In this document: piece by piece, positions 55,248-64,000 of the stretch
Layout: each line of letters opens with the position of its first letter
Position numbering within the stretch: the first letter of the stretch is position 1
Origin: Halioglobus sp.
GTDB taxonomy: Bacteria; Pseudomonadota; Gammaproteobacteria; Pseudomonadales; Halieaceae
Direction of reading: 5' to 3'
NCBI GenBank assembly: GCA_020443425.1
Contig: JAGRIE010000002.1
Span: 62,001-126,000 of the forward strand
Length of the DNA: 64,000 bases
The notes under the pieces: generated by a model
Told to the model about the DNA's origin: nothing
The model's input: the letters and a program-made list of their open reading frames with translations, nothing else
Databases searched by the model: none
Translations under genes and position numbers: made by a program

Positions 55248-56021
55248 TCAATCGAACAGGGACGCCCAGTTGATGCCATTGATATGTCCGCCGCCATCGA
55301 CGTACAGGGTATTCCCCGTCATATAGCGCGCCTCTTTGCTGGCGAGGAACAGGGCCACGCCTGAGATGTCCTCGTAGGGATCACCCATATAGCCCATGGG
55401 GACCTGTTTGTTGACTCGCTGCGCCATCTCCGGCGCAAATTCCTGCATGGCCAAAAAGGCCGCGGTAACGGCGCCCGGGCAGATGGCGTTGACTGTGATG
55501 CCGTGCGGTGCCCACTCGCGGGCCGCCGTGCGTGTGAGTGCCCGCAGCGCTTCCTTGGCGACATTGTAGTCGGCCGTCTGCGGGTGGGCATTGACGCCGT
55601 TGAGTGAGCACAGGTTGATGATGCGGCCGAAGCCCCGGGTCTTCATCGACTGGAGTGCCGCCGTCATGGCCCAGCGCGCGGCAAAGAAACCGCCGTCCAA
55701 CTGGCGCTGGAACTCCTCGTCGGTTTTGTCCTCCAGCGGTGTCAGCGCGGCCGGCGGCACGGCGTTGTTGATGAGTACATCGACCGCACCGAACTGGCCG
55801 ATGGCATCCGCGATCAGTGCCTGTACCTGGTCTTTGCGTGTGACATCGCAGTGCGCATAGGCAGCGCGGGTGTTGCGCGCAGTCAATTCCGTTGCCAGCG
55901 CCCGCCCCGCCTCATCGTTGATATCCGCTGCCACGACCTGATAGCCCGCTTCCGCGAAGCGGGTGGCAAACGCCTTGCCGAGGCCCTCGGCAGCCCCGGT
56001 TATCACTACGACCTGATCCAT
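55248..56021 (-). CDS. Short-chain dehydrogenase/reductase
   Basis: A 257-residue classical SDR. The cofactor motif is VITGAAEGLGKAFATRFAEAG, the Asp at VVAADINDEAG favours NAD(H), NNA is in VDVLINNAVPP, and the catalytic Ser and YxxxK are in INLCSLNGVNA and DYNVAKEALRAL. EDISGVALFLASKEARYMTGNTLYVDGG is the usual C-terminal stretch. The substrate, probably a secondary alcohol or ketone, is unknown. It lies downstream of the lipid operon in the same direction with a 172-nt gap that holds a hairpin. Confidence 0.92.
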   Translation of the reverse strand: MDQVVVITGAAEGLGKAFATRFAEAGYQVVAADINDEAGRALATELTARNTRAAYAHCDVTRKDQVQALIADAIGQFGAVDVLINNAVPPAALTPLEDKTDEEFQRQLDGGFFAARWAMTAALQSMKTRGFGRIINLCSLNGVNAHPQTADYNVAKEALRALTRTAAREWAPHGITVNAICPGAVTAAFLAMQEFAPEMAQRVNKQVPMGYMGDPYEDISGVALFLASKEARYMTGNTLYVDGGGHINGINWASLFD

Positions 56022-56193: not shown

Positions 56194-56832
56194 TCAGCGT
56201 GACGGCAGTTGCTCCTCCTGGAAGGAGACTTCCCGGTACCAGTCGGTCATGTCATCGTACATATCACCTTTGAGGATATGCATGGGGGCGCGGTGGTAAA
56301 TCCTGATATCGTGGAACGGGTCGGTCAGGATTTTCGTGGCCCACACCAGGCCCGACTGGAATCCCATCAGGTGAAACAGGTGCACTGTGCGGAACAGGAC
56401 TGCTCCGACGCCGGTGGCCAGCCACAGTATCGCGGTGTTGTAGACCAGGCCCCGGTCGATCTGCTGGTCGCCCAGTAGGCCGAAGAAATCCGGTATGAAC
56501 CAAAGGATGATGGGCACGGCAATCCAGACCGACAGCAGTATCACCTTGCGCCGCAGGTTGTATCCGACCTTGACGCTCTCCTTGTATTCGTGTGTTGCGC
56601 CGTTGACGGCATCATAACTTTTCGGCTCGAAAAAAAAGTGACCGACCTGGCGCAGCACCATGGCGAGCAGCCAGCCGACCATCACAGCGGCCACCGGGTC
56701 GACGAAGATCAGGTAGTAGCTCACCACAAAGCAGCTGGCGCTGAGCAGGTGCAGCAGTTGGTTGACACGGTTGTGATGATAGTAGCGGTGGTCGTCCCAT
56801 CGCTGGCGATGCAATTCTTCGAGAAAGGTCAT
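56194..56832 (-). CDS. Mpo1/DUF962-like membrane protein
   Basis: A 212-residue membrane protein. The N-terminal HHNRVNQLLHLLSASCFVVSY and RQVGHFFFEPKSYD fit the two conserved His-containing segments of the DUF962/Mpo1 family, whose yeast member is an Fe(II) dioxygenase that shortens 2-hydroxy fatty acids. Later helices and PFHDIRIYHRAPMHILKGDMYDD extend beyond the usual domain. It is the last gene of the operon; its ATG overlaps the psd stop as ATGA. A role in oxidising a lipid chain or headgroup is inferred. Confidence 0.75.
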   Translation of the reverse strand: MTFLEELHRQRWDDHRYYHHNRVNQLLHLLSASCFVVSYYLIFVDPVAAVMVGWLLAMVLRQVGHFFFEPKSYDAVNGATHEYKESVKVGYNLRRKVILLSVWIAVPIILWFIPDFFGLLGDQQIDRGLVYNTAILWLATGVGAVLFRTVHLFHLMGFQSGLVWATKILTDPFHDIRIYHRAPMHILKGDMYDDMTDWYREVSFQEEQLPSR

Positions 56833-57755
56833 GTCTTCACCTCATACAAGTGTTGTGATGGTTGCCGCTGGTGTCCAGCCGCTGTGGTTGTGGGGGATGC
56901 TGACAGCAGGGCGCTGCCCATCAGGATGCGTTCACCGCGTTGCACGCCCTCGCAGAACTGGTAGTCCGCTGTGGCAAACAGGATGATCGTGGAACCGTGC
57001 TGGAAATAGCCCAGTTCCTCACCCTTGGTAAATGCGGCATCGCATGAAATTTTTCTCGGGCCCCGGTAGTGCATGTCCAGGACTGTCTCCAGCCAGTGCA
57101 GCCGGATACTGGCAACCAGGATGGCCGCTACTGCAACCAGGCACACAGAGTGCTGCGGGTCCCCGGTGTCCAGCGCCATCACTGCTCGTTCGTTCTTGCA
57201 ATACAGTTTTTCAATGCGTTGCAGCGCAATCGGATTGACGTTCCAGGTATCGCCGGCAATATAGGTGACCTCGTTAATACGACAGTCCAGCGGTGCGTGA
57301 AAGCGGTGGTACATGCTGCTTTTCAGGCGCAGTGTGATGTACTTGCCGTCGCGATACCGCTCCCGCAGTGCGCGATCGGGAATCAGGTCCTGCAGGTCGT
57401 AGGGGAATCCCTTGGCCTGGAACACGGTAGTGCCATCGATATCCCCGTGCTCACCGATTATCGCGTCGCAGGGGCTGATGACGATATTGGCCCGGGAGTC
57501 GACCGGGCGCGCCCCGGGGCGCAGCGAGCGGGTGAAACACGCCTGCAGGCTGTTGAATTTCTGTTGCTGCGCCTCCGTCAGGTCGAGGTCGTCGGCAAAG
57601 GCCTGCCAGATACGGAGCATTACACGGGTGAGATGCGGGTTTTCAATGCCGCTGAGCCAACCCATGAACTGCGTGGCCAGGCGGCGCGGAATCCGGTTCG
57701 TCAGCAGGAAATTGAGCTGCGCGTTCTGTGACATTGAGTGAATCAGCCTGCTCAT
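56829..57755 (-). CDS. psd: Phosphatidylserine decarboxylase-family protein
   Basis: A 308-residue pyruvoyl-type decarboxylase. PSD motifs are FFTRSL-like FTRSLRPGARPVDS, YRDGKYITLRLKSSMYHRFHAPLDC (with the catalytic His), and VAVAAILVASI. The self-cleavage site reads YFQHGSTIILF, so the usual LGST is HGST; Gly-Ser-Thr are kept, and Ser would become the pyruvoyl group. It should decarboxylate phosphatidylserine or a related serine lipid. It starts 3 nt after the PHP-GT4 stop. Whether it is the housekeeping PSD or a dedicated paralogue cannot be told from this window. Confidence 0.88.
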   Translation of the reverse strand: MSRLIHSMSQNAQLNFLLTNRIPRRLATQFMGWLSGIENPHLTRVMLRIWQAFADDLDLTEAQQQKFNSLQACFTRSLRPGARPVDSRANIVISPCDAIIGEHGDIDGTTVFQAKGFPYDLQDLIPDRALRERYRDGKYITLRLKSSMYHRFHAPLDCRINEVTYIAGDTWNVNPIALQRIEKLYCKNERAVMALDTGDPQHSVCLVAVAAILVASIRLHWLETVLDMHYRGPRKISCDAAFTKGEELGYFQHGSTIILFATADYQFCEGVQRGERILMGSALLSASPTTTAAGHQRQPSQHLYEVKT

Positions 57756-57758
57756 CTG

Positions 57759-60473
57759 TCAGGCCACCGAGCGCTGCTCGAGGTTCTTGCTGGGTGCCGG
57801 CAATCCCAGGTCCTCCACATACTGCGCCATAATACGCTCGGCGCTGTAATGGGCTGCCCGCGCCAGCGCCGCGGCGCGCATCGCGCTGCGTGTGTCCGGC
57901 CAACCGTAGTGGGCGACGATCTGCGCGGCCATCTCCCGCGGGTCGCTGACCAGATAGCCGCTCACTTCATGCTCGATGATATCCCTCGGCCCCTTGCAGT
58001 CATACGCGATGGCGGGCATCCCGTGTGCAAAGGCCTCCAGCAGTACATTGCCGAAGGTATCAAAGCGGGAGGGAAAGACAAACAGGTCGAGGCCGGCGTA
58101 GAGCCCGGCCAGTGTCGGTTTGTCAATCCAGCCCATGAAGCGGGCGTCCGGCAGCAGCCGTTTGAGCTCTTCCTCCGCAGGGCCGCTGCCGGCGATCACC
58201 AGCTTCAGTTCCGGCAGCGACTTCCTGGCTCGGGCCATGATGTCGGGCAGATCCATGATGCCCTTCTCCGCGCTCAGCCGGCAGGCGATGAAAAGCACCG
58301 GTGTATCGTCGTTGGCGTCGTAGAACAGGTCCGACTTCCTGACCGGCACGATGGGGGCGATTACCTGTGGCGCGTGGTGGGCGGTGAGGAATACCCGCTC
58401 GCTGCCGAGTTCCATTTCAAAGCCTGTCAGCCAGGCCCTGTGCTCACGGTTCAGCACGAAAATGCCGTCGAACTGGCTGTACAGCAGTCGCAGCAGGCGT
58501 CGCACCCGGTCGCGCTCATGTTGTGTCGCCTGCGTTGTGCACTTGATGTACTCAATCCAGTCCGTGTGCATAAAAAAGAAACACGGTATGTTGAACATGA
58601 ACTTCAGGTACAGCGCGACTGCGACCATCGGGCCTTCAGTGGAGCAGATAACCCGGTCGTAGCCCCCCTCGTAGAAAATACGCGCAATCTCCAGCAGGTC
58701 CGGGATACGCAGTTGCTGGCCGCCGGATTCGGGCAGTGTGAAGGCCGACAGCGGTCGCGTTACATGCAGGTGAGGTTCAGGTTCCGCCGTCTCGTGGCAT
58801 ACCAGCATATCGATGGCGAGGTCATGTGCCTGTATCTGTCGCAGCTTGCCGGTCAGTGAGTTCGAAACGCCGTTTTTATCGAACAGGGTGTCGGTCAGGT
58901 GCAGTGCGCGGTGCTCGTGGTGGTTGCGGCCGAGGTGGGTGGCGAAGTTGTTGAGGAATGTCCTGTTCTGGTACAGCGCGCGGGTGCTGGCAAGCGCGGC
59001 GCCCGCCAGCACCGCCGCAATCATCACCGGGAAAGTCAGCTTGTCCACCAGCTGGCTCACGCAGCGGTCAGTGACCTGGGTATATTTGCTGGGGGTGCCC
59101 AGCAGCCAGGCGGTGACCTGGCTGGGTACTTCGAACTTGCGCGTCAGTGCCTCAGTGGAAAAGCCGCCGGGTTCACCCAGCTTCTCTGCCAGTGTCGACT
59201 CCTGCACACGGGTGATGATGACCTTGTTGATCTCGGTGAACAGCGCGGCGATAGACTGGTTGACCGTCTGCGTGAAGTCCTCGGCGGTGCCGGCGTGACT
59301 GTCGGCGATTTTCTCCAGATAGGAAATACAGAAGCGGTACTTCTTAGAGACTTTCCAGCGCAACATTTTGTTGGGTTTCTTACCTTGCAGCGCATCGTGG
59401 ATGAAGTCGAAAAATTTTCGCGACTGCTTGTTCTTCTGCAGCTCCAGCAACACATTGCTGAGCGCGAAGCAGGCGAGTTTGTCAGAGGCTTCGCCCCGGT
59501 GTAGCAAGATACGCAACAGGCCGGGATCCTCGATGTTGGTGGCAATCTGTGAAAAGTAGTCCAGCAGCGCAATATTGAGCTTCTGGTTCTCCGCCACATG
59601 ACCGAAGGGCGCAGTGCGGCCGGCACGAATCGCCTCCAGCGCGAGTTGTGAAGCCGGCTCAGTGCGCAGCCGCTGTTGCAGGTCGGGTATCAACAGGCGG
59701 GTTCCACACTGTCCCGCAAAGATGCCCATGTGGTCGTCTGAACCCCCGGTGAGGGATTTCGGGCGCGCGGGGTCGACACCGAAATCCTGGGGGTTGAGCT
59801 GGTGCTTGCGGGCGTAGTGGTGGATTTTCTCCGGTGTCAGGCCCTGTACCCAGTTCAGGGTGAGTGTGGACTGCCACAGGTCGCGCTGGCCGTTCAGCAC
59901 TTCAAATCGCTGGAACATCACGGCCAGCTTCTCGAACAGTTCGAGGTTGATTTTCTCGTTGCGGGTATAGAAGTACAGCGGATGGGGCAGTACTACCGGT
60001 ATATCGTTGGCCGCGGCGTAGCGCAGGAAATCGTAAACGTTCTGGCGTTTGTTGTTCAGCAGTACTTCCTGTTCGGGAGAGAAGCCATAGGTCAGCACAT
60101 GCAGGTAGAGATTGGCCTCGGGGAAATAGCAGGTGAATTCAGCGCCCACCAGTACATCGTATCCCTGGTCCTGCAGTTTCCAGCATGAGCGGGCATTGTT
60201 GTGGTTGGTGACAGTGAGAACATCGCTGCCATTGCGACGCAGGCATTTCACCAGCTTGCCGGTTTTCAGCCAGGTTTCCGGCAGGCCCAGTATCCGCCCC
60301 CACAGCTCATCGGGTGTATCGCTGTTGTGATCGTGACAGTGCATGTCGATGCGCAGGGTATCCTCATCGGCAAATCGCAGTGACTCCCGTTGCAGATAGG
60401 TATTGAACTCCTGCGCGAGTGATTGCCTGAAGTCTCCCGAACGGACGTTGCGCGGTCTGTTGTCCCGGATCAT
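57759..60473 (-). CDS. PHP-domain / GT4 glycosyltransferase fusion protein
   Basis: A 904-residue two-domain protein. The N-terminal PHP phosphoesterase has all metal motifs: MHCHDHNSD (H45, H47), VTNHNN (H91), GAEFT (E112), LPHPLYF (H164), EVLNG (E191) and GGSDDHMG (D246, H248). Residues about 260-540 are mostly helical and unassigned, with one hydrophobic stretch, FPVMIAAVLAGAALAS. The C-terminal GT4 domain has ICSTEGPMVAVAL, FIACRLSAEKGIMDLP, VIAGSGPAEEELKRLLP and D805-x7-E813 in SRFDTFGNVLLEAFA, where the first Glu of E-x7-E is Asp. It overlaps the aminotransferase by ATGA. A glycolipid-forming role is inferred from neighbours. Confidence 0.88.
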   Translation of the reverse strand: MIRDNRPRNVRSGDFRQSLAQEFNTYLQRESLRFADEDTLRIDMHCHDHNSDTPDELWGRILGLPETWLKTGKLVKCLRRNGSDVLTVTNHNNARSCWKLQDQGYDVLVGAEFTCYFPEANLYLHVLTYGFSPEQEVLLNNKRQNVYDFLRYAAANDIPVVLPHPLYFYTRNEKINLELFEKLAVMFQRFEVLNGQRDLWQSTLTLNWVQGLTPEKIHHYARKHQLNPQDFGVDPARPKSLTGGSDDHMGIFAGQCGTRLLIPDLQQRLRTEPASQLALEAIRAGRTAPFGHVAENQKLNIALLDYFSQIATNIEDPGLLRILLHRGEASDKLACFALSNVLLELQKNKQSRKFFDFIHDALQGKKPNKMLRWKVSKKYRFCISYLEKIADSHAGTAEDFTQTVNQSIAALFTEINKVIITRVQESTLAEKLGEPGGFSTEALTRKFEVPSQVTAWLLGTPSKYTQVTDRCVSQLVDKLTFPVMIAAVLAGAALASTRALYQNRTFLNNFATHLGRNHHEHRALHLTDTLFDKNGVSNSLTGKLRQIQAHDLAIDMLVCHETAEPEPHLHVTRPLSAFTLPESGGQQLRIPDLLEIARIFYEGGYDRVICSTEGPMVAVALYLKFMFNIPCFFFMHTDWIEYIKCTTQATQHERDRVRRLLRLLYSQFDGIFVLNREHRAWLTGFEMELGSERVFLTAHHAPQVIAPIVPVRKSDLFYDANDDTPVLFIACRLSAEKGIMDLPDIMARARKSLPELKLVIAGSGPAEEELKRLLPDARFMGWIDKPTLAGLYAGLDLFVFPSRFDTFGNVLLEAFAHGMPAIAYDCKGPRDIIEHEVSGYLVSDPREMAAQIVAHYGWPDTRSAMRAAALARAAHYSAERIMAQYVEDLGLPAPSKNLEQRSVA

Positions 60474-62188
60474 GGCGCTATCTCCCCTGTGGTTACTGGC
60501 TGGTCGTACTGTGTGCGTGGTTTCAGTTTGCCCAGTAGTGGGAATCGGGCCTGTAGCATTTCAGAAATCAGCTGACGCTGGATCGTCTTTTCGGTCAGGG
60601 CTGCGCCCTGCCACCACCAGCCATCCGCGGACATCTGTTGCGCTGCTTTCACAAAGCGGCGTGTCACGTCCTGGAAGTCCTCGTCGGTGAAATTCAGGCT
60701 CATAATCATGCGGCCGCTGCCGACCCAGCTCAGCTCCAGTCCCTGGTCGCGCAGGTAGAACTGGAACATCCAGTTGTAGCGCCCGGGTACCAGGTACAGC
60801 ACCGTGCAGATGGTGTGCAGGTTCACCACTTTCACTGGCAGCCCCGCAGCCCTCAGTTTTTCATTCAGTGTACTGATGCGGTCGTTCCAGGTTGTCTCCG
60901 CCTCGGCGTACAGTCGCTGGTAGTGCGGTTGTTCTATACGCTGCAGGAAGACATTCATCGCCGCCAGCACATACGGGTGTGAGTTGAAGGTGCCGCGGGC
61001 AAAGGAGATATTCGCCGGCTGCTGCGGTTTGAAACGCTGCATCAGGTCGCGGCGGCCGCACACCACACCGACCGGCAGCCCGCCACCCAGGGTCTTGCCG
61101 TAGGTCACCATGTCTGCCTGCACGTCGAAATATCCCTGGGCGCCGCGGTAGCCGAGCCGGAACCCGGTAAACACCTCATCGAAAATGAGGACGATGCCGC
61201 GACGCGTGCAGACTTCGCGCACGCGCTGCAGCCAGCGGGTGTATACCTCGCGGTTGAAGTCGGCCGCGCGCTTGCTGTTGACCAGGCTGGCATCCCCGGC
61301 GGCATCGGCATTTGGATGCAGGGCCTGCAGCGGGTTGACCAGTACGCAGGCGATGTCAGTGCGGGTCTCCAGTACCTGCAGGGTGCGTTCGCTGAGATCG
61401 GAAAGTGTGTATACATCGTCGACCTTGCGCTGGTTGCCGACGCCGGGTTGTACCCCGTCCCACCAGCCGTGGTAGGCGCCACACAGGCGCACCAGGTGTG
61501 TCCTTCCCGTGTGGTAGCGGGCGAGGCGCACGGCCTGCATCACCGCCTCTGTGCCCGACATATGAAACGACACCTCGTCCAGTCCCGCGATCTGCGCTAT
61601 CCGCTCCACGTTGTCCCGCACCACCGGGTGATAGGCACCCAGTACCGGCCCGAGACTGTCGACCATGGCCGCGCCTTCGGCCATGCACGCCTTGTAAAAG
61701 TCATAGCCGAAGACATTGACGCCGTAGGAGCCAGTGAGGTCATAACGCCAGTTGCCGTCGAGATCGCAGACACGCACGCCCTCGCTCTGTTCAGCTATGC
61801 TGGCCTGGCGCAGGGCCTGCGGCAGACGGTCGCGGAAGGGAAACGGCACCCGATAGGCGCTGGTGAAGTTCACATCGGAGATCCTGCCGTGCAGCGAGGC
61901 TGCGTATTCCAGTGACAGCGGTGCGGTGGCCGCGGCGGCCTGGGCCAGTCGCGACAGACCCGCCCGGCGCTGCGCCGCCACCGGGGCCGGTGCGCCGTCG
62001 CAGTTGAAGAACTGCGTATCATTAAAACTGTAGGCGGCGACCTGGCGCGCAACCCGGCGCGACCATTTTGCGTGGCCGCGCAGGGAGGGGTGCTTGGCGC
62101 GGGAGAGCCGGAGGCGGATATGGACCCTGTACAGCACGGTGCCAATGGCGCCAGCCGACAGCAGGTAGAGCAGCGTAGTCTGTAACAT
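60470..62188 (-). CDS. Membrane-anchored class III (GSAM-like) aminotransferase
   Basis: A 572-residue PLP enzyme. An N-terminal hydrophobic helix (TTLLYLLSAGAIGTVLYRV) anchors it; about 110 unassigned residues follow, then the fold-type I aminotransferase. HMSGTEAVMQAVRLAR (SGTEA at 211-215) binds phosphate, GAYHGWWDG stacks PLP, IFDEVFTGFR has Asp337, and YGKTLGGGLPVG has the Schiff-base Lys365. It is closest to glutamate-1-semialdehyde aminotransferases, but those are soluble and near 430 residues. It leads the operon, with AGGGA 5 nt before ATG 62188 and a hairpin upstream. Confidence 0.88.
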   Translation of the reverse strand: MLQTTLLYLLSAGAIGTVLYRVHIRLRLSRAKHPSLRGHAKWSRRVARQVAAYSFNDTQFFNCDGAPAPVAAQRRAGLSRLAQAAAATAPLSLEYAASLHGRISDVNFTSAYRVPFPFRDRLPQALRQASIAEQSEGVRVCDLDGNWRYDLTGSYGVNVFGYDFYKACMAEGAAMVDSLGPVLGAYHPVVRDNVERIAQIAGLDEVSFHMSGTEAVMQAVRLARYHTGRTHLVRLCGAYHGWWDGVQPGVGNQRKVDDVYTLSDLSERTLQVLETRTDIACVLVNPLQALHPNADAAGDASLVNSKRAADFNREVYTRWLQRVREVCTRRGIVLIFDEVFTGFRLGYRGAQGYFDVQADMVTYGKTLGGGLPVGVVCGRRDLMQRFKPQQPANISFARGTFNSHPYVLAAMNVFLQRIEQPHYQRLYAEAETTWNDRISTLNEKLRAAGLPVKVVNLHTICTVLYLVPGRYNWMFQFYLRDQGLELSWVGSGRMIMSLNFTDEDFQDVTRRFVKAAQQMSADGWWWQGAALTEKTIQRQLISEMLQARFPLLGKLKPRTQYDQPVTTGEIAP

Positions 62189-62230: not shown

Positions 62231-62320
62231 CTGTTGGTTTAAAGCAACTTACAGGGAAAGCATTTCAGTGGGGTGACGCTTTTGCGACAGTGTTGTTGCA
62301 GATCGCGGCTGTCGTCGAGG

Positions 62321-64000
62321 TCAGCGCGGGTCCAGTACACCCGAGGGTGCGGGCTCTGCGACCCGTGCGCCCGCGGTCGCGGCGATGGGCATGCCGTGCA
62401 GGCTGACATGGTCCAACTGGTCACGGTAGCGCGGCGGCGTCTGCGCGGGATCGTCGGCGGCAAATGCAATCATCTGGTTCCCCAGCACATCCGGGGAGCC
62501 GGGCGTCAGTTTGTCCTGCCACCAGTACTCAAAAGTGGCCGATTCACTGGTGAGGTGGACGATACCGTAGCCGTGATCGACCCATTCGACAAACTGGCAG
62601 GCCGGCGAGCTGTTGATGATGCCTTTCTCCGCGTTGCGGGATGCCGCTACCCGCTGTGCGGTGGTCGAATCGGGCAGATTGTTTGCGACGATTTCGTCGA
62701 AGCCGCCACGGCCCATGGATGTGGGCGCAAACTCAACACCCACAGAGGCCGCCCTGGCGTTGTCCGTTACTGTATTGGCAGTGCTGCCGCGGTAATAGCC
62801 GGCGGCAGCATTCTCTGCGGTGGAGCCGTTCTGCGTATTCGCCGTGACATCGCCGGATCGGTAGCCGGACAAGCCTTTTTCCACCAGGTCCGACCCCCAG
62901 TTGCCATGCATGTCGCCGGAGACAACGATGTTATTGTGCAGCCGCTGCGCCGCGCTGTTATCGCCGCGCAGAAATTCGAAAAACTGCTGCCGCTCCTCCG
63001 GATAGTCTGCCCAGCGTGTCAGGTCACTGGTGATCCAGGTCTGGTTGACCAGCAGTCGCCAGCGCTTGCCCTGTTGCTGCGATGCCGCCATGCCCTCGGT
63101 CAGCCACTCGTACTGTTTTCTCGAAAACAGGCTGTCGCCGGACGCCAGGTGGGAACTATCGGAAACCACACCCGGCCGCTCCCTTGAGGGCAGGTAGAGT
63201 TGTGTGTCGACACAGAAAATATCTGCCATCGGGCCGTAGTCCAGTTTGCGATAGATCTGCAGGGGGTCAGCCGGCTCGGGGTAGCTGCCGTCCTCCACCA
63301 GCACAAATTCCCCGCTGCCATCAGCGCGTACCGGCCGCGTCGGCGTCCACTCGTAGAATGCGCGCACCGTATCGGCCAGCGTGGTGGTCTGCTGGCTGTC
63401 GTCGACGCTGCTGTCGTCCAGTTCGTTGCCGAAATTGACGGAGATGTCGTGATTGTCCCAGACTATGGCCCAGGGGTGTTGCTGGTGGGCGCGCAGGAGA
63501 TTGGGGTCTGATCGATACAGCGCATAGCGACGCCTGACCTCGTCGAGATTAAGCCAGTCCCGGTAATCCACATAGTTGATATCGTCGATGTCGCGCCGCG
63601 CCCGCACGGTCTCGTCCTCGTCGACAAACTCATAGATGTAATCACCGCAGTGCGCGACCAGATCAATATCGTTGCGGTCGGCGAGGTGGCCGTAGCCGCT
63701 CCAGTAGGAAGACCAGTAGCTCGAGCAGGAGACCACGGCGATGCGCACCGCACTGACGTCTACCTCGGGCGCGGTGCGTGTCCTGCCGACAATGGACGTG
63801 AGTCCGCCGAGGGCGCTGAACTGGTAGTAGTAGCTTGTCGCGGGTGACAGGCCGACGACATCGACCTTGATGGTCCAGTCATGTTCGGAGATGGCATCCT
63901 GCGTCCCCTGGGCCACCACGTTCCGCATCCCGGGATCGGTTGCCACCTGCCAGGTCACGGGCACTGCGTCTCCCGCGGCATCCTCTTCCGTCACCCGGGT
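62321..64000 (-). CDS. PhoD-type alkaline phosphatase/phosphodiesterase, 5' end outside window
   Basis: At least 560 residues; the frame stays open to the window edge, so signal peptide and start are missing. The visible N-terminus is a fibronectin-like lead (VGLSPATSYYYQFSALGG). The metallophosphatase then has AVVSCSSYWSSYWSGY, VAHCGDYIYEFVDEDE, IVWDNHDISVNFGNE, VSGDMHGNWGSDL and FVEWVDHGYGIVHL. PhoD enzymes are Tat-exported Ca/Fe-dependent phosphodiesterases used in phosphate scavenging. It ends 132 nt before the lipid operon, on the same strand. No Pho box can be judged without the upstream region. Confidence 0.93.
   Translation of the reverse strand, partial: TRVTEEDAAGDAVPVTWQVATDPGMRNVVAQGTQDAISEHDWTIKVDVVGLSPATSYYYQFSALGGLTSIVGRTRTAPEVDVSAVRIAVVSCSSYWSSYWSGYGHLADRNDIDLVAHCGDYIYEFVDEDETVRARRDIDDINYVDYRDWLNLDEVRRRYALYRSDPNLLRAHQQHPWAIVWDNHDISVNFGNELDDSSVDDSQQTTTLADTVRAFYEWTPTRPVRADGSGEFVLVEDGSYPEPADPLQIYRKLDYGPMADIFCVDTQLYLPSRERPGVVSDSSHLASGDSLFSRKQYEWLTEGMAASQQQGKRWRLLVNQTWITSDLTRWADYPEERQQFFEFLRGDNSAAQRLHNNIVVSGDMHGNWGSDLVEKGLSGYRSGDVTANTQNGSTAENAAAGYYRGSTANTVTDNARAASVGVEFAPTSMGRGGFDEIVANNLPDSTTAQRVAASRNAEKGIINSSPACQFVEWVDHGYGIVHLTSESATFEYWWQDKLTPGSPDVLGNQMIAFAADDPAQTPPRYRDQLDHVSLHGMPIAATAGARVAEPAPSGVLDPR

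Follow-up and report, generated by a model that had tools for sequence, protein, structure and literature searches.

A conserved four-gene operon of Halioglobus sp. with a PHP-GT4 fusion as a candidate locus of phosphate-starvation lipid remodelling

Introduction

What does a bacterium make with an aminotransferase, a fusion of a PHP phosphoesterase-like domain and a GT4 glycosyltransferase (PHP-GT4), a relative of phosphatidylserine decarboxylase (PSD) and a DUF962/Mpo1-like membrane protein encoded in one operon? The question is raised by a 64,000-nucleotide stretch of DNA from Halioglobus sp. (contig JAGRIE010000002.1, positions 62,001 to 126,000), in the following called the window, for which a first-pass annotation had proposed that these four genes together produce an undescribed amino- or glycolipid. 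The answer put forward here is that they probably constitute a PhoB-controlled lipid-remodelling operon, in which PHP-GT4 replaces the pair of the phosphoesterase PlcP and the glycosyltransferase Agt, and in which the aminotransferase (AT), the PSD-like decarboxylase and the DUF962 protein, collectively termed the module, serve the production of an aminolipid. Sequence statistics back the gene set, its conservation, the separate PSD clade, the enrichment of Pho boxes and the complementarity of PlcP and PHP, whereas every chemical step, the step order and the product are inferred.

Where water or soil is poor in phosphate, phosphorus-free lipids determine how well bacteria can cope. According to the main text of PMC4796936, plcP located beside agt or btaAB and equipped with Pho boxes represents established lipid remodelling, and uncharacterised amino- and betaine lipids, AAL2-4 and BLL, are listed there. 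At the locus described here the known part would be the phosphate-starvation lipid remodelling and the new part an undescribed module within it, suggestive of the re-use of a classical phospholipid enzyme, PSD, in a phosphate-free pathway, with PHP-GT4 as a second type of enzyme, unrelated to PlcP, for the same step. Conserved and associated with Pho-box-like promoters, the module makes the question of such lipids directly testable.

Gene content and conservation of the operon

The four open reading frames extend on the minus strand from 62188 to 56194 in the order AT, PHP-GT4, PSD-family and DUF962; their coordinates as well as the junctions of the first-pass annotation, a 4-nt overlap (ATGA) between AT and PHP-GT4, a 3-nt gap between PHP-GT4 and PSD and again a 4-nt overlap (ATGA) between PSD and DUF962, were all verified in the window. 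The first gene (60470..62188) encodes a class-III (HemL/AMT-like) pyridoxal phosphate (PLP)-dependent aminotransferase (Pfam Aminotran_3, 7e-36) with the Schiff-base lysine Lys365 embedded in TYGKTLGGG, the second (57759..60473) the 904-aa PHP-GT4 fusion, assigned by Pfam GT4 (5e-28), an AlphaFold2 model and Foldseek, the third (56829..57755) a pyruvoyl decarboxylase that falls into a separate clade of the PSD family (PS_Dcarbxylase, 8e-56, alignment and tree), and the fourth (56194..56832) the His-rich DUF962/Mpo1-like membrane protein (Mpo1-like, 1.2e-4). Of the families initially named, Aminotran_3, GT4 and PSD are thus recovered by Pfam, but the Mpo1-like match falls just below the cut-off and PHP is not matched by Pfam.

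In a survey that scanned one genome per species, 40 loci encode a relative of PHP-GT4, and 23 of them carry all four genes on a single strand and in unchanged order, so that gene order, the synteny check proposed along with the initial reading, is conserved far outside this genome. Five further loci are interrupted by contig ends (L047, L048, L056, L061 and L065) and 12 are without a close copy of the other three genes, among them L067, which is situated on a 3.6-kb contig and uninformative. Carriers include Halioglobus, Haliea (sp. E1-2-M8, L066), Paraglaciecola (P. hydrolytica S66, L068), Cycloclasticus, Nevskia, Mariprofundus, Ghiorsea and a record with the label Verrucomicrobia, the PSD of which, however, groups among the Nevskia PSDs in the tree. 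PHP-GT4 is rare, being present in 3 of 369 genomes sampled evenly from the class with the window's own genome counted, and the scattered and rare, yet syntenic occurrence points to horizontal transfer of a functional unit.

The AT, at E<=1e-55, occurs in 11 of the 369 class genomes and in 25 of 398 phylum genomes, often without PHP-GT4. Among 31 AT loci read, seven with and 24 without PHP-GT4, DUF962 adjoins the AT in 29, the remaining two (L118 and L126) being cut, and the module PSD signature is present in 26; of the five loci without this signature, L126 is cut, L118 has the module PSD elsewhere in its genome, outside the stretch read, and the genomes of L119, L123 and L124 are without a module PSD. 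The 24 loci without PHP-GT4 encode DUF962 in 23 cases, a PSD bearing the module signature in 20, a stand-alone GT4 in 18, a methyltransferase of one kind next to DUF962 in 14, a PlcP-like phosphoesterase within the stretch read in six, an OlsF- or OlsB-like acyltransferase in two and BtaA, together with a methyltransferase labelled BtaB-like, in two (L123 and L124). In the latter two, AT and DUF962 form a single protein of 738-742 aa (L123:7265-9493, L124:7507-9723), with BtaA, the methyltransferase, a PlcP-like gene and a GT4 in the same stretch. Three stand-alone GT4s were scanned and found glycolipid-synthase models as best matches, below the cut-offs of these models. The smallest set, on a plasmid of Sphingomonas parapaucimobilis (strain YK209, L170), consists of PSD, AT, a hypothetical protein matching DUF962 and the methyltransferase. 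Because of the frequent stand-alone GT4, PHP-GT4 appears exchangeable around a putative core of AT and DUF962, usually accompanied by the PSD-like gene; the four genes are therefore not the one indivisible pathway that was originally conceived. The gene set around the AT appears to be that of phosphate-starvation lipid remodelling.

Genes that recur beside the four-gene set are membrane-lipid genes, which agrees with the lipid function initially proposed, although other neighbours vary. An OlsF equivalog is encoded directly downstream of the PHP-GT4 operon in L045:8101-9858 (816 bits, cut-off 620). A gene for an OlsF-type ornithine-lipid synthase is likewise found directly downstream at L051:12689, the family scan having covered the L045 copy. 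UDP-glucose dehydrogenase-like neighbours are present in five of 28 cassette loci, in three of which a UDP-glucose 6-dehydrogenase-like gene immediately follows the operon (L049:6695, L052:12371 and L058:12301; the single copy scanned, of L058, reached 626 bits, below the cut-off of 757), and give a hint, only, of UDP-glucuronic acid as the sugar donor.

Pho-box-like promoter sites

Promoters were scored against the Pho-box consensus. For the 23 PHP-GT4 operons the mean best score was 14.28, compared with 13.06 in 165 control upstream regions of the same loci (Mann-Whitney U test, p=4e-5), the best site was on the sense strand in 22 of 23 compared with 42% of the controls, the true consensus ranked first of 60 permuted matrices, and ten promoters individually reached p<=0.05 against first-order shuffles. 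In a separate set, the 24 promoters of loci without PHP-GT4, the enrichment was stronger, with a mean of 15.76 compared with 12.90 in 142 controls (p=3e-10, first of 60), and 18 reached p<=0.05 against simple shuffles, an example being CTGTCATGAATCTGTCAGC about 51 nt upstream; in the promoter sets related loci are not independent, and eight of these 24 come from one genus. In the window, the Pho-box-like site CTGTCGCAAAAGCGTCACC (62272..62290, minus strand) is located about 100 nt 5' of the AT start codon. The Pho boxes typical of PlcP-Agt-type loci are hence represented here by an enrichment across the family, with a weak site in the window; PhoB control appears well supported for the operon family and plausible for the window's own copy. 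Since this enrichment coincides with PlcP-like, BtaA, OlsF and PhoD neighbours, the context would be phosphate starvation, which was absent from the first-pass annotation.

PHP-GT4 and the PlcP step

A strong PlcP-like match (E<1e-60) was obtained in all eight searched AT genomes without PHP-GT4 and in five of 30 with PHP-GT4 (Fisher, 2.6e-5), four of these five being of the Nevskia type, and the window's genome had no PlcP-like profile match at E<=0.001. As PHP-GT4 is mostly found where PlcP is absent, these data suggest that the PHP domain takes over the step of PlcP and passes the product to the fused GT4. In the genome G643 a PlcP-GT4 pair is encoded apart from the module, which has its own GT4; the module therefore looks like a separate lipid route.

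The GT4 domain (residues about 530-890, 57804..58886, minus strand) is delimited by Pfam matches, alignment and Foldseek and carries a DTFGN motif. An AlphaFold2 model of the entire protein (pLDDT 84.2) has an alpha/beta domain at either terminus with a helical part (about 297-514) between the two, and its 50 best Foldseek matches include GT4 proteins such as BshA, MshA and PimB'; fold searches gave mostly or only glycosyltransferases among the 50 matches listed, by which the PHP fold is not confirmed. PHP domains have metal-site motifs in the order HxH, NH, E, HP and SDxH, and the putative PHP phosphoesterase-like domain (residues about 35-300, 59574..60371, minus strand) displays DMHCH, TNHN, GAE, PHPL and GGSDDH in this order, with H45, H47, H91, E112, H164, D246 and H248 invariant in 33 aligned sequences. 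It is these ordered motifs that point to a PHP domain, with weak support from profiles. The Pfam model PF02811 found no match in the window PHP-GT4 and was matched marginally by three of 16 homologues (best E 0.053, below the cut-off), a profile of the PHP region found no match among PDB sequences, and hhalign aligned the region with a small PHP protein at E=5e-4 (looser setting, probability 31%, the first motifs alone in register) and with DnaE PHP domains at E=0.045, compared with E values of 0.3-0.48 for three unrelated alignments. A Metallophos match (PF00149/PF12850) was not found in the window PHP-GT4.

The locus thereby resembles PlcP-Agt remodelling (PMC4796936) in its Pho boxes, in the linkage of a phosphoesterase with a lipid GT4, here in the form of a fusion, in neighbouring betaine-lipid genes in some genomes and in its occurrence in marine bacteria. 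In contrast to PlcP-Agt, a PHP-type domain instead of a calcineurin-type PlcP is combined with the GT4, and genes for an aminotransferase, a PSD-like and a DUF962 protein are added; the word aminotransferase is absent from the main text of that article.

Proposed pathway

At low phosphate, the operon would exchange ordinary phospholipids for lipid free of phosphorus that bears an amine, a sugar or both. The PHP domain would hydrolyse a phospholipid (or phosphatidate) at its phosphorylated headgroup to diacylglycerol, by which phosphate would be saved, and the GT4 domain would glycosylate the product to a phosphorus-free glycolipid. As a separate entity, the module would produce a phosphorus-free aminolipid. 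The DUF962 protein, Mpo1-like and probably Fe(II)-dependent, would oxidise a 2-hydroxy or similar carbon and so supply or trim the substrate, the AT would aminate the carbonyl group of a lipid, the pyruvoyl-dependent PSD-like enzyme would decarboxylate an amino-acid-bearing lipid and, in the other bacteria that carry it, the methyltransferase would methylate the amine. The best-fitting order, DUF962 oxidation, AT amination, PSD-like decarboxylation and methylation, would parallel the path from phosphatidylserine (PS) over phosphatidylethanolamine (PE) to phosphatidylcholine (PC) and BtaA-BtaB, without phosphate. A more specific and tentative proposal, to which we give limited credence, is a phosphorus-free mirror of PS-PE-PC, in which the AT (with DUF962) would create an amino-acid headgroup on diacylglycerol or glycosyl-diacylglycerol, a re-tooled PSD would convert it into a PE analogue and the linked methyltransferase into a PC analogue. 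If true, a betaine/choline-like lipid class with its own biosynthetic route would extend across Alpha-, Gamma- and Zetaproteobacteria and further lineages of the phylum. The BtaA-BtaB route to diacylglyceryltrimethylhomoserine (DGTS) is similar, as BtaA adjoins AT-DUF962 in L123 and L124 and a phosphorus-free amine lipid would likewise be expected, but the window operon is without BtaA (DUF3419) and has AT and PSD-like genes instead.

Several observations weigh against a remodelling operon of this kind. The profile itself was built from five of the eight PlcP-positive genomes, and the comparison with the three independent ones, three of three and five of 30, has a p of about 0.01; moreover, "PlcP" is our own label for a set that is without a characterised PlcP as reference. 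PHP-GT4 occurs without the module in up to 12 of its 40 loci, in some next to glycosidase-like genes. Singly, 13 of the 23 promoters of PHP-GT4 operons and six of the 24 without PHP-GT4 are not significant. The site in the window (62290-62272) is weak, at p=0.04, and in the two closest relatives, L033 and L034, the scores do not exceed those of shuffled sequences (p 0.55 and 0.33). With respect to the PSD, the tree program flags a junction of long branches where the module clade begins, the genomes G373, G487, G555, G585, G608 and G596 matched only the module PSD, a second PSD not having been sought there, and three AT genomes (G141, G369 and G147) are without a module PSD, which is therefore not indispensable. 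A search of the PDB with a structure model of DUF962 matched no solved structure, and we know of no precedent for a PSD-type step on a phosphorus-free lipid.

Aminotransferase and DUF962 protein

The best PDB relative of the AT is the aminotransferase region of mycosubtilin synthase (1e-48), with which, as with HemL (class III), it shares the PLP aminotransferase family and the conserved lysine; unlike these, the AT is a stand-alone protein with about 130 N-terminal residues outside the match and is linked to lipid genes. It had been described as membrane-anchored, which is not borne out by the window copy, where no 19-residue segment passes 1.6, but the N-terminus is by eye more hydrophobic in L035, L058 and L070, and in several homologues it has the look of an anchor. 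Mpo1 oxidises 2-hydroxy fatty acids. The Mpo1-like match of the DUF962 protein, which covers residues 11-70 of a His-rich helical membrane protein, reaches 22.6 bits in the window against a curated Pfam cut-off of 24 and 25.0 in the L038 homologue; the window protein differs from Mpo1 in a conserved C-terminal part beyond the matched segment. H15, H19, H28, H65 and H174 are invariant in 27 aligned sequences, and by its three hydrophobic stretches DUF962 is clearly predicted to be a membrane protein.

From these relationships an alternative arises in which the substrates of AT and DUF962 are acyl chains (conversion of 3-keto into 3-amino groups and alpha-oxidation of 2-hydroxy chains), so that the novelty would lie in the chains and not in the headgroup. 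It is a possibility because mycosubtilin synthase, the closest solved relative, uses its aminotransferase domain for the amination of a 3-keto acyl thioester and because AT and DUF962 are present in three genomes that lack the module PSD; the activity of Mpo1 on 2-hydroxy fatty acids and the fusion of AT with DUF962 in L123 and L124 agree with it as well. On the other hand, the usually linked PSD requires an alpha-amino acid, and the neighbouring BtaA, methyltransferase and GT4 are headgroup enzymes, which leaves chemistry on the chains a possible but unlikely explanation.

The PSD-like decarboxylase

In E. coli Psd, Tyr137 and Ser166 contact the lipid phosphate and Asp142 aids maturation together with Asp90 (main text of PMC7952604). 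The window PSD, a PF02666 member that aligns with E. coli Psd from the N-terminal region onward, shares with this type-I enzyme (PDB 6L06) the fold family, the GST self-cleavage site (S255) and the active-site histidines, and keeps H150, H153 and D97. It has R143, M148 and N172 where E. coli has Y137, D142 and S166, so that the phosphate contacts of the E. coli type and D142 are absent in the window PSD, with the H144 equivalent retained. Other module PSDs aligned likewise possess Arg and Asn at the Y137 and S166 sites, plus Met or Phe (the latter in L056 and L057) at the D142 site, whereas the other, non-module PSDs compared keep the Tyr except L092 (Arg) and the Asp except L088 and L099 (Asn). 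In the tree, module PSDs constitute one clade (support 100/99) on a long stem, separate from E. coli Psd; the L101, L104 and L105 PSDs therein are cassette copies by signature. The replacements fit, without proving it, a different headgroup, and the enzyme appears to belong to a divergent subfamily, the substrate of which may not be phosphatidylserine. The initial statement that PSD acts on serine lipids therefore applies to the family, but not necessarily to this member.

That the psd might be the sole housekeeping gene of its kind, which would have spoken against the first-pass proposal, is excluded as the window's genome encodes another PSD at G000:C200. Of 29 cassette genomes, 28 have at least two PF02666 matches, one of them, G431, with a weak second match (1e-4); in the remaining genome the contig that carries the operon breaks off too soon. 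Unlike E. coli Psd, the module PSD is an additional copy in these 28 genomes. G643, a 1.9-Mb genome in one contig, was considered as a case in which the module PSD would be the sole PSD and was discarded, as the chromosome holds a short type-II PSD too, adjoining a CDP-alcohol phosphatidyltransferase that resembles PssA.

The PSD-like enzyme could alternatively be a phosphate-stress isoform of phosphatidylserine decarboxylase, which in some species together with a PmtA-like methyltransferase would yield PE and methylated PE, with AT and DUF962 serving unrelated fatty-acid or sphingoid chemistry. The cleavage serine and the equivalents of H144 and H147 are indeed kept, Arg replaces Tyr137 in 15% of PSDs (main text of PMC7952604) and here also in L092, and a methyltransferase is linked in 14 of the 24 loci without PHP-GT4. 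We nevertheless consider such an isoform unlikely: the aligned module PSDs share their three replacements and the long stem, the gene is additional to another PSD in the 28 cassette genomes and in G643 and constantly adjoins the AT, and extra phospholipid synthesis makes little sense when phosphate is scarce.

A soluble product or a protein anchor

For PHP-GT4, a role other than in lipid synthesis would be the production of a soluble or storage glucoside, in which, as in the sucrose- or trehalose-phosphate pathways, the GT4 domain forms a phosphorylated glycoside from which PHP removes the phosphate. Foldseek relates the GT domain to BshA and sucrose-phosphate synthase. In the Bacteroidota loci L060, L062 and L064 one clustered protein is encoded directly after PHP-GT4, the L062 member of which belongs to the GH13 alpha-amylase family, and in L053:4161-6599, L054:5543-7969 and L071:5629-7986, loci without the module, proteins of about 800 aa, glycosidase-like by eye, are encoded directly upstream; the single one scanned, of L054, had no Pfam match. 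In the operon, however, PHP-GT4 is placed among membrane-lipid genes, it has a hydrophobic stretch at residues 475-501 and it tends to exclude PlcP, which renders a soluble glucoside improbable compared with the glycolipid preferred here. PS synthase and decarboxylase serve archaeosortase, and the window's genome encodes an exosortase (G000:C137:1022-1774), but an anchor lipid for PEP-CTERM/exosortase protein sorting was rejected as highly implausible, since exosortase occurs independently of the operon, in 20 of 31 cassette rows (18 of 29 without two duplicate genomes, which leaves 11 of 29 without it) and in 33 of 57 relatives taken with or without the operon, and in none of the five Zetaproteobacterial cassette genomes searched.

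Literature and flanking genes

The first-pass annotation knew of no described pathway with this gene set, and a literature search, most subscription journals being outside its range, likewise retrieved, among the matches listed, no publication recognised as describing it. Within the same range, with few subscription journals, no paper was found that names PlcP, aminotransferase and phosphatidylserine decarboxylase all together, or both DUF962 and phosphatidylserine decarboxylase. In the main text of a 2024 article on bacterial aminolipids (PMC11631085), aminotransferase and decarboxyl- are absent.

On the same strand upstream of the operon, a PhoD-like phosphatase (62321..63994, minus strand, PhoD 2e-54) is encoded by an open reading frame open at the window end, and an SDR oxidoreductase (55248..56021, minus strand, open reading frame and Pfam) follows downstream after a gap of 172 nt. 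Both were considered and not retained as operon members, as they are found at these positions solely in L033 and L034 among the loci read; operon membership is not proven for the PhoD-like gene, and the SDR gene is probably outside the operon. The PhoD-like phosphatase gene is located directly upstream of the operon in the window, L033 and L034. Near the module at L165:3466-7001, two genes have weak similarity (27-30% identity) to PhoD of the window. At L059:10855-14340, the genes after PHP-GT4 encode an 824-aa protein with no Pfam match and a distant PSD (25% identity), which may represent a third form of the linkage of PHP-GT4 with PSD.

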